From contig CAMAYR010000011.1 in the NCBI GenBank assembly GCA_945862355.1, forward strand, positions 1-38,455: 38,455 bases of DNA, given 5' to 3'. Below the pieces are notes generated by a model. It made no database searches and was not told where the DNA came from. It saw only the letters and a program-made list of their open reading frames with translations. A program made the position numbers and the translations under genes. Source of the DNA: Devosia equisanguinis. GTDB lineage: Bacteria > Pseudomonadota > Alphaproteobacteria > Rhizobiales > Hyphomicrobiaceae. This document shows positions 1,187 to 36,666 of this stretch, piece after piece (the first letter of the stretch is position 1; each line of letters begins with the position of its first letter).

Positions 1187-1263
1187 CTAGTGTTCCGGTT
1201 CTGACATTTGCTTCCCGTTGCGGCGAGGCTCGGTGCAAATGTCAGAACCGCAAGAAACACTAG
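1187..1263. repeat. CTAG-bounded palindromic element A
   Basis: A 77-bp inverted repeat beginning and ending in CTAG. The left arm is 1187-1211 (CTAGTGTT...CTGACATTTGC) and the right arm 1235-1263 (GCAAATGTCAG...AACACTAG). The 23-base loop, read on the minus strand, contains GAGCC..GCCGCAA.CGGG. Loop and ends match element B, while stem bases differ in pairs. It may also act as terminator of the hydrolase gene. Confidence 0.8.
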
Positions 1264-1276
1264 CAGGTCTATGATT

Positions 1277-1355
1277 CTAGTGTAGCTTCTTCATCTGACG
1301 TTTGGTTGAGAGCCCAGCCGCAAGCGGGTACCAAACGTCAGATGCGCTACACTCG
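1277..1355. repeat. CTAG-bounded palindromic element B
   Basis: A 79-bp inverted repeat with left arm 1277-1306 (CTAGTGTAGC...CTGACGTTTGGT) and right arm 1330-1355 (ACCAAACGTCAG...CTACACTCG). The final CTCG is a one-base variant of CTAG and is shared with the start of element C. The loop 1307-1329 contains GAGCCCAGCCGCAAGCGGG. Compared with A, two stem positions change on both arms so that pairing is kept. Confidence 0.8.
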
Positions 1356-1423
1356 TGGCCCGTCGCGCCTAAATCGTATCATAGCCGCAGCCACCGTCCG
1401 ATTTGCGCGCGACGGGCCGTTAG
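1352..1423. repeat. CTAG-type palindromic element C
   Basis: A 72-bp inverted repeat: left arm 1352-1376 (GGCCCGTCGCGCCTAAATCG) and right arm 1399-1423 (CGATTTGCGCGCGACGGGCC). The loop 1377-1398 holds AGCCGCAG and CCACCGTC. It shares its first four bases with the end of element B. The first 55 bases are almost identical to the element at 36500-36575, about 35 kb away, so this is a dispersed repeat. Confidence 0.82.
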
Positions 1424-1627: not shown

Positions 1628-1704
<77 letters not shown>

Positions 1705-12270: not shown

Positions 12271-12433
12271 GGGGCCTCGGGGAGATACGTCATGGCGGCA
12301 CAACCCAACCAAGAATGCCCAAATCTAGCATCGGCACATTCCCGCGTCTGCCATCTCTTACTTGACCGCCTTGTCACGCAACAGTCGTTTGCGCTCTTGC
12401 AATGCCAGCGGCTTCATCGCACATTGGCCTGAT

Positions 12434-12531
12434 ATCCGAGGGGTGCCGGCGGCAGCCGGCTGAGATCGCACTGCACTCCGTGCGAGCCACCCTTAGAACC
12501 TGATCCGGGTCATGCCGGCGAAGGGACGGGA
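12434..12531 (+). promoter_or_regulatory. TPP riboswitch (THI box)
   Basis: The conserved parts of the thiamin pyrophosphate aptamer are present in order: GAGGGGTGCC (P2/P1 side), GGCTGAGATCGCA with the CTGAGA T-loop, then ACCCTTAGAACCTGATC, CGGGTCATGCCGGCG and AAGGGA. Binding of TPP would repress the downstream genes. It lies about 87 bases before the start of the YjbR gene and more than 500 before thiC, so both genes should be under its control. Whether control acts on transcription or translation is not obvious from the short expression platform. Confidence 0.95.
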
Positions 12532-12617
12532 GCCGATGTGAGCAATTGTTTCCACAAATACCGTTGGTGCCGCTGCACGTGCTCAGCCGATCGCGCTGCG
12601 CGATGGGAAGGCGCGCG

Positions 12618-18476: not shown

Positions 18477-18488
18477 TTCAAACAATGT

Positions 18489-18895
<407 letters not shown>

Positions 18896-22010: not shown

Positions 22011-22087
22011 TGGTCGGAGCGGCGAGATTCGAACTCGCGACCCCTTGCTCCCGAAGCAAGTGCGCTACCAGGCTGCGCTACGCTCCG
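22011..22087 (-). tRNA. tRNA-Pro (anticodon CGG)
   Basis: On the minus strand the acceptor CGGAGCG pairs with CGCTCCG. The D arm reads GCGCAGCCTGGTAGCGC, the anticodon stem-loop CTTGCTTCGGGAGCAAG gives anticodon CGG, and the T arm contains GAGTTCGAATCTC. The discriminator is A and CCA is encoded at 22011-22013. Length is 77 nt. Confidence 0.97.
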
Positions 22088-36499: not shown

Positions 36500-36575
36500 C
36501 TAGTGGCCCGTCGCGCCTAAATCGTAACATAGCCGCAACCACCGTCCGATTTAGGCACGACATGAGGGCCACTAG
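36500..36575. repeat. CTAG-bounded palindromic element C, second copy
   Basis: A 76-bp inverted repeat with perfect CTAG ends (36500-36503 and 36572-36575). The left arm continues GTGGCCCGTCGCGCC and TAAATCG; the right arm reads CGATTTAGGCACGACATGAG then GGCCACTAG. The loop 36525-36546 contains AGCCGCAACCACCGTC. It is nearly identical to the copy at 1352-1423 over the left arm and loop. Confidence 0.85.
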
Positions 36576-36588
36576 AATCAACAATGGC

Positions 36589-36666
36589 TTAGTGATGCGT
36601 TCATCGCGCCTTAGTTGACAGAACCTTCGTCGCACCGTCGGTCAACTAAGGCGCGACGCTCACTAG
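36589..36666. repeat. CTAG-type palindromic element D
   Basis: A 78-bp inverted repeat. Stem TCGCGCCTTAGTTGAC (36604-36619) pairs with GTCAACTAAGGCGCGA (36641-36656); the outer ends are TTAGTGA and CTCACTAG. The loop 36620-36640 ends GCACCGTCG, like the loop of element C. The base of the stem (TCGCGCC/GGCGCGA) equals that of C, but the upper stem differs on both arms. Confidence 0.82.

Follow-up and report, generated by a model that had tools for sequence, protein, structure and literature searches.

Introduction

REPs are short palindromes located beside RAYT genes, and a GTAG-type tag is typical of them. An integron attC site is defined by R'/R'' boxes with an AAC/GTT core and by an integrase. 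RIME elements, reportedly described by Osteras in 1995, are intergenic repeat elements of rhizobia and consist of two large palindromes. The CIR elements of Caulobacter and Brucella are reportedly due to Chen and Shapiro in 2003, as relayed by a review. According to that review, these alphaproteobacterial, intergenic and highly conserved elements of about 110 bp are composed of two stem-loop arms with a linker and have TA termini (PMC2229807). In one arm, GANTC is situated at the terminal loop or partly within it, and the mechanism of mobility is given as unknown (PMC2229807).

In REPINs, the replicating form is a doublet of inverted palindromes, the singles are its remnants, and a trans-acting RAYT is proposed (PMC3116915). 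A study of REPs describes the GTAG-type tag and, alongside it, the CGTC-tagged REPs, which are predominantly alphaproteobacterial, 20–40 bp long and not associated with transposase genes (PMC3733652). Br-REP1 and Br-REP2 of Bradyrhizobium are intergenic palindromes, the former being flanked by two further palindromes (PMC5082802).

The window analysed in this work is the whole stretch of 38,455 nucleotides of the Devosia equisanguinis contig CAMAYR010000011.1. Its paired hairpins are closest, among the known kinds, to the CIR/RIME elements and to REPINs. The two arms with a linker, the intergenic position and the alphaproteobacterial host are all shared with CIR elements. The differences lie in the size of the pairs, which is 161–172 bp instead of about 110 bp, and in the stems, which here differ in sequence and stay paired. 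The size gap is narrowed by a compact form of 121 bp in another genome (G568), and the element may be a long branch of CIR/RIME. The likeness to RIME lies in the intergenic position and the two large palindromes. With REPINs, the element shares the inverted doublet as the apparent unit of movement, and by this analogy it would work like a REPIN. It differs in its large hairpins (73–81 nt), the nearly fixed 13-bp spacer, the CTAG at every end and the lack of a Y1 gene that tracks it. Because GANTC occurs in the loop of just 12 of 240 hairpins and Y1 does not track the copies, the element is filed under neither CIR nor REPIN. A short REP with a GTAG-type tag does not describe it either, given the hairpin length and the CTAG ends. 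The CGTC-tagged REPs resemble it in being alphaproteobacterial and without a transposase, but they are only 20–40 bp long and carry another tag. The two consensus sequences printed for Br-REP1 and Br-REP2 have no CTAGTG ends, unlike the hairpins considered here (PMC5082802). No description of CTAG-ended hairpin pairs with a 13-bp spacer was found in the open-licence literature; an earlier one may exist elsewhere.

Architecture of the hairpins in the window

The original prediction described three adjacent palindromes, A, B and C. The conserved ends of A and B, their homologous loops in opposite orientation and the two compensated stem differences were all confirmed (Table 1). The two had been taken for separate elements and are instead one element, joined by the 13-bp spacer at 1264-1276. 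Both hairpins have an outer stem of about 10 bp, starting at CTAGTG, and an inner stem of about 15 bp; a short bulge separates the two stems, and the inner one closes a loop of about 23 nt. The mutual inversion of A and B makes both bulges point toward the spacer. A covariance model built on the family hairpins, with A and B in its training set, gives bit scores of 74.6 for A and 68.9 for B, each best on the opposite strand to the other.

Table 1. Features of the two hairpin pairs and of the decayed hairpin in the window.
Feature	Position	Strand	Length	Remarks
Hairpin A, left hairpin of pair 1	1187-1263	(-)	77 bp	bulge on spacer-side arm
Spacer of pair 1, CAGGTCTATGATT, between A and B	1264-1276	(+)	13 bp	
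Hairpin B, right hairpin of pair 1, inverted relative to A	1277-1355	(+)	79 bp	final CTAG is CTCG
Pair 1, complete paired-hairpin element A+B	1187-1355	(+)		left bound CTAG, right bound CTCG
Element C, decayed left hairpin of C subfamily, partner missing	1352-1423	(+)	72 bp	inverted repeat 1357-1376/1399-1418
Left hairpin of pair 2, complete C-subfamily pair	36500-36575	(+)		
Spacer of pair 2, AATCAACAATGGC	36576-36588	(+)	13 bp	
Right hairpin of pair 2	36589-36666	(+)		TTAGTG...CACTAG

Element C had been regarded as a third sibling of A and B. It proved to be a decayed left hairpin of a different subfamily, which overlaps B at bases 1352-1355 and whose ends have decayed to CTCG and GTTAG. The whole copy of this subfamily lies at 36500-36666 and consists of a hairpin, a 13-bp spacer and a second hairpin. 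The C subfamily is not reached by the A/B-type covariance model (E up to 1), so the assignment of C relies on its ends, bulge and pairing and on the 13-bp spacer. Together, C and the 36500 pair represent a second subfamily, alike in design, in the genome of the window (G000; 5.05 Mb in 353 contigs).

The stem word CTGACNTTTG, with up to one mismatch, occurs 8 times in the window compared with 5.3 in shuffles, and it is not clearly enriched (11 of 100 shuffles are as high). CTAG is scarce, with 20 occurrences against the 126 expected from base composition, and 6 of these 20 are element ends. At the gathering thresholds, no Rfam family matches 1187-1423 or 36500-36666. Elsewhere in the window, Rfam matches a TPP riboswitch (12429-12543, +), a bacterial RNase P class A (18486-18894, -) and tRNAs at 1631-1704 (-) and 22014-22087 (-). 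A perfect 21-bp inverted repeat without a loop is present at 51-92.

The pair and its insertion sites

Constant ends around a variable stem had been proposed as the design of a single palindrome. The unit is instead an inverted hairpin pair whose spacer is fixed, a layout similar to that of REPINs and CIR/RIME elements. Between neighbouring hairpins that are distinct, the gap across the loci collected is 13 bp in 149 cases, 12 bp in 2 and 14 bp in 2; a CTAG is shared in 13, and two further gaps lie below 200 bp (134 and 145). These counts are biased toward 13, as a 13-bp pattern had been used to retrieve most of the loci. In a set free of this bias, 50 of the 108 palindrome places in G000, the gap is 13 in 10 of 11 neighbours and -4 in one. 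Over 126 pairs, the hairpins measure 73–81 nt and the pair 161–172 bp, with a median of 167 bp. The spacers collected with a free N13 agree with CAANNCTATGATT at most positions, e.g., A3 in 23 of 25 and G10 in 22 of 25.

The genome G009 is assembled in three contigs and is 100% complete. The covariance model lists at least 32 pairs and three apparent singles there, having scored 150 of 1460 candidates, so that weaker copies may be missing. The gaps in these pairs are 13 (26 pairs), 14 (3), 15 (2) and 16 (1), and all 32 listed pairs are inverted alike by the better-scoring strand, with a near tie in the hairpin at C2:490680. When the three singles were read, one had a partner with an internal deletion, one had a decayed partner and one was a fusion of two halves. 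Three complete pairs lie inside 3.7 kb at C2:1225002-1228635, and no transposase was recognised by eye among the open reading frames of that segment. Lone hairpins were also considered as halves of a longer autonomous element, and this was rejected, as almost all of those displayed have a damaged partner or are fusions; one lone hairpin near a contig end (L012) is without a recognisable partner. No gene-carrying form of the element was seen among the lone-hairpin loci read.

A trace of movement comes from the loci L178 (empty) and L179 (filled), the sole filled and empty comparison with nearly identical flanks (93.8% on the left and 99.2% on the right). Their 161-bp difference corresponds to one whole pair with one CTAG and is situated at a CTAG, which is an inner CTAG of an older pair. 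Further nested pairs, each at an inner CTAG of a second pair, occur in G000 (L219 and L220) and elsewhere (L050, L079, L098 and L175). Three relatives of the same genus (G001, G002 and G003) lack the pair L217:13176-13343 at the syntenic position; they are too diverged for the empty site to be defined at the level of bases. The CTAG at both ends may represent a duplication of all 4 bp, a duplication of the TA within it, or in part the element itself. Even the TG that follows CTAG appears changeable, as the left hairpin reads CTAGTCACCC...GGGTGACTAG in seven of nine copies on Roseibium/Labrenzia plasmids. In these plasmids (L212-L215 and L317-L321), a neighbouring SDR gene is annotated as ending at a stop codon formed by the TAG of the outer CTAG. 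A search for orthologous plasmid sites lacking the element found none.

The copies are intergenic. None of 93 clusters falls inside a predicted gene, and 82 of 93 are flanked on either side by a gene no more than 600 bp away, as judged with a rough GC3 gene finder and with the caveat that the presence of an element would in any case break up a reading frame. The orientation of the flanking genes shows no bias (12 convergent, 17 divergent and 53 tandem, against a background of 49, 58 and 183).

Stem pairing and covariation

The covariation alignment contains 64 distinct hairpins, of which 38 are right hairpins and 26 reversed left hairpins, and has 25 predicted pairs. In 19 of these 25 pairs, both sides have changed with the pair kept, and the copies are other than plain clonal repeats. 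Paired cells amount to 97.4%, the two-sided cells number 345 against 89.4 in shuffles, and the covariation score is 0.581, compared with 0.172 for shuffled and at most 0.131 for slid alignments. For each of these three measures, 0 of 500 shuffles are as high, counts which are not probabilities, because the alignment rows are related. The number of further standard pair types does not exceed that of the shuffles (48 against 44.8, with 50 of 500 as high). The prediction that pairing itself is maintained is borne out by the excess of two-sided cells.

Whether the pairing serves an RNA or a DNA hairpin had been left as an alternative. If RNA from one strand were under selection, G·U should be commoner than A·C. 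Across 13 core pairs in 240 distinct hairpins, there are 3011 Watson-Crick pairs, 30 G·T, 30 A·C and 44 other mismatches, the G·T frequency being judged against A·C only and broken hairpins being under-counted, since the hairpin finder requires 10 or more of 12 inner-stem positions to be complementary. The finder makes no distinction between G·T and A·C, and it accepted 56 of the 60 hairpins that had been identified through the junction only. G·T being as rare as A·C, pairing is apparently kept as DNA or on both strands equally. The alternative thus leans to DNA, and to judge from these counts the stem pairing looks to be kept as DNA rather than as one-strand RNA; RNA selection could yield the same equality of G·T and A·C if transcription ran equally in both directions.

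In 11 copies of one G009 subfamily, stem identity is 0.94 and loop identity 0.65, with five core cells showing two-sided changes and two showing mismatches. The bulge is retained as well, as all four of its alignment columns are filled in 222 of 240 hairpins and empty in one. A different behavior is found in a fixed insertion on nine Roseibium/Labrenzia plasmids, which comprise five distinct sequences. Of its seven variable positions, six fall in predicted pairs; each of these six stem changes affects one side only, and two lie in weak pairs inside the loop. These one-sided changes suggest that pairing is needed for moving and not for the host; in this small set, it seems that the resting copy decays freely while moving lineages remain foldable.

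Abundance and host range

A genome-wide collection of palindromes bounded by CTAGTG and CACTAG yielded further copies, as the prediction had anticipated. The exact pattern CTAGTG-N55..85-CACTAG is present at 108 places in G000, against 44 for the reversed pattern. The reversed control itself, GATCAC-N55..85-GTGATC, has tens of matches in many relatives, and another palindrome family may be hidden behind it. The junction between the two hairpins was counted as well: CACTAG-N13-CTAGTG with at most one mismatch has 80 matches in G000 against 14 for the reversed control, and the exact junction ACACTAG-N13-CTAGTGT has 26 against 0. Among 103 genomes of the family, the exact junction is present in 36, including G000, distributed over 17 of 25 genera and with up to 57 copies per genome, while the reversed control has one match in one genome. 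Near-identical copies are many in G000, G005 and G028, and hairpin places number 104 in G005, 43 in G009 and 21 in G016. In 25 of 80 loci (L069-L148), a hairpin lies no more than 250 bases from the end of the locus; repeats of this kind may break assemblies.

Over GTDB species, a 20-base pattern matches at least 108 stretches. Among the 80 matches listed, 76 have names that we take to be alphaproteobacterial and four are named just 'Proteobacteria'; named strains of Bradyrhizobium, Nitrobacter, Caulobacter and Hyphomicrobium are among the hosts, Hyphomicrobium sp. CS1BSMeth3 and Bradyrhizobium sp. LHD-71 being examples rich in the element. In a phylum sample of 398 genomes, the exact junction occurs in three: G000, G514, where the match is a decayed pair from the same order as G000, and G266, where the match is without hairpins and is taken as chance. 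Across the class, the covariance model finds the element at E 1e-6 in 13 of 190 genomes including G000, the other 12 spanning 10 families, under strict filters and with 25 candidates scored per genome. A compact form was read at nine loci (L362-L370) of G568, one of these 12 genomes; its hairpins measure about 55 nt, nearly lack a loop and are joined by a shortened spacer. The 121-bp pair of G568 is that of L362, and L368 belongs to another subfamily. The nearly loopless structure indicates that the 22-nt loop is dispensable. In plasmid DNA, the window element retrieves two records and a composite query 12, nine of which cover most of the query; a search with a Bradyrhizobium pair retrieved none.

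Search for the moving enzyme

A RAYT-like protein or another transposase with the same ends had been proposed as something to look for; none was found in the four families searched (Y1_Tnp, IS481, IS630 DDE_3 and DDE_Tnp_1), and in G009 none of the four has a match at E 0.001. Y1_Tnp (PF01797) is absent at E 0.001 from G005, G009 and G016, and is present in 9 of 35 genomes without a visible relation to copy number; its single strong match in G000 carries an internal stop. The IS481 model has matches below the cut-off in 11 of 14 element-rich genomes, none above it in these 14, and none at E 0.001 in G009, G016 and G022. IS630 DDE_3 is present in 33 of 102 genomes and has no match in G000, G009, G016, G022, G024 and G027. 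DDE_Tnp_1 occurs in 10 of 14 element-rich genomes, compared with 10 of 19 genomes without the exact junction, and is lacking in G009, G075, G079 and G115.

The IS481 and IS630 loci read have no hairpins at their ends, barring two neighbours taken as chance. IS630 genes near pairs in G028 (L257) and G011 (L229) were read and judged to be chance neighbours because IS630 is missing from many element-rich genomes. Among proteins recurring beside 111 loci, the largest cluster covers 10 loci. A Pfam scan of nine proteins from the recurring clusters found no transposase; three had no match, and the six matched ones are ordinary (kinases, SDR, ABC transporter, LysR and aminotransferase). The enzyme may have been lost after amplification, or may belong to another family.

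Proposed mechanism and alternative explanations

The A-B pair, about 167 bp long, is probably non-autonomous mobile DNA in which the pair is the moving unit, CTAG is the insertion site and foldability is needed for copying. In this mechanism, the two inverted hairpins, with the spacer between them and the bulges on the spacer side, would form one element. The pair rather than a single hairpin would move; its insertion at the tetranucleotide CTAG, with a CTAG left at each end, is shown by the one filled and empty comparison and by the nested pairs. A trans-acting enzyme would recognise only copies that can still fold, as extruded or single-stranded DNA, and would multiply these, whereas copies fixed in place would decay. 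A wider version, offered tentatively and held to be rather doubtful, regards the element as mobile DNA of the whole class whose only constants are CTAG, the inverted bulged hairpins and the 13-bp spacer; the mover would then be an uncharacterised enzyme, neither Y1 nor one of the tested DDE families, which reads the folded shape of the hairpin pair over its sequence.

The IS481 and IS630 elements of other bacteria prefer CTAG, which, together with the TGT...ACA ends between the CTAGs, the small size and the near-identical copies in G000, G005 and G028, speaks for a classical MITE. Such an element would be served in trans by the transposase of a CTAG-targeting DDE insertion sequence (IS481-, IS630- or IS5-like), since lost in some genomes. 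The fixed target or target-site duplication of a MITE is indeed seen in the CTAG at both ends, in L178/L179 and at the nested sites. This origin is nevertheless unlikely, as the three DDE families searched (IS481, IS630 DDE_3 and DDE_Tnp_1) fail to track the elements, the IS481/IS630 loci read have no hairpins at their ends apart from the two chance neighbours, no transposase is among the nine neighbour proteins scanned, and plain terminal inverted repeats are not expected to have covarying stems. The inverted doublet as replicating unit, the bulged hairpins and the conserved tetranucleotide follow the logic of REPINs (PMC3116915) and agree with a REPIN-like element moved by a Y1 (HUH) RAYT that cuts at CTAG beside the bulged hairpin. 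The distribution of PF01797, absent at E 0.001 from hairpin-rich G005, G009 and G016, without visible relation to copy number and interrupted by a stop in its one strong match in G000, makes this very improbable.

The original prediction had allowed that the arms are copied from each other, and template switching (quasipalindrome correction) would keep them alike without selection for folding. A few hairpins do look arm-copied: in G005, C11:75-148 and C40:68-141 have no bulge, C49:5674-5752 is bulged on both arms and C71:4207-4283 is a chimera, while L312 has CTGGCG/CGCCAG altered on both arms. The G005 hairpins are half-swapped, as if arms had been copied or exchanged at the loop. Copying is not seen in the one fixed orthologous insertion, where the six stem changes on nine plasmids are one-sided, in a test resting on seven variable positions, and correction would erase the bulge, yet it is kept. 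As a general cause of the pairing, template switching is accordingly thought improbable. The least credible explanation is a host-useful RNA or 3′-end structure, such as a terminator or an mRNA stabiliser, spread by selection. The location of the clusters outside predicted genes, often near gene ends, would suit it, but G·T is in no excess over A·C, gene orientation is like the background, no Rfam family matches the elements, and the occurrence is patchy (36 of 103 family genomes).

Significance

The non-autonomous mobile pair proposed here belongs to a large and cleanly structured family, in which the stem sequence varies and the pairing is kept. This combination makes the family a natural test of the recognition of mobile elements by DNA shape. 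As G009 is nearly complete, has 32 listed pairs and shows no match to the four common transposase families, the moving enzyme can be searched for directly in that genome.
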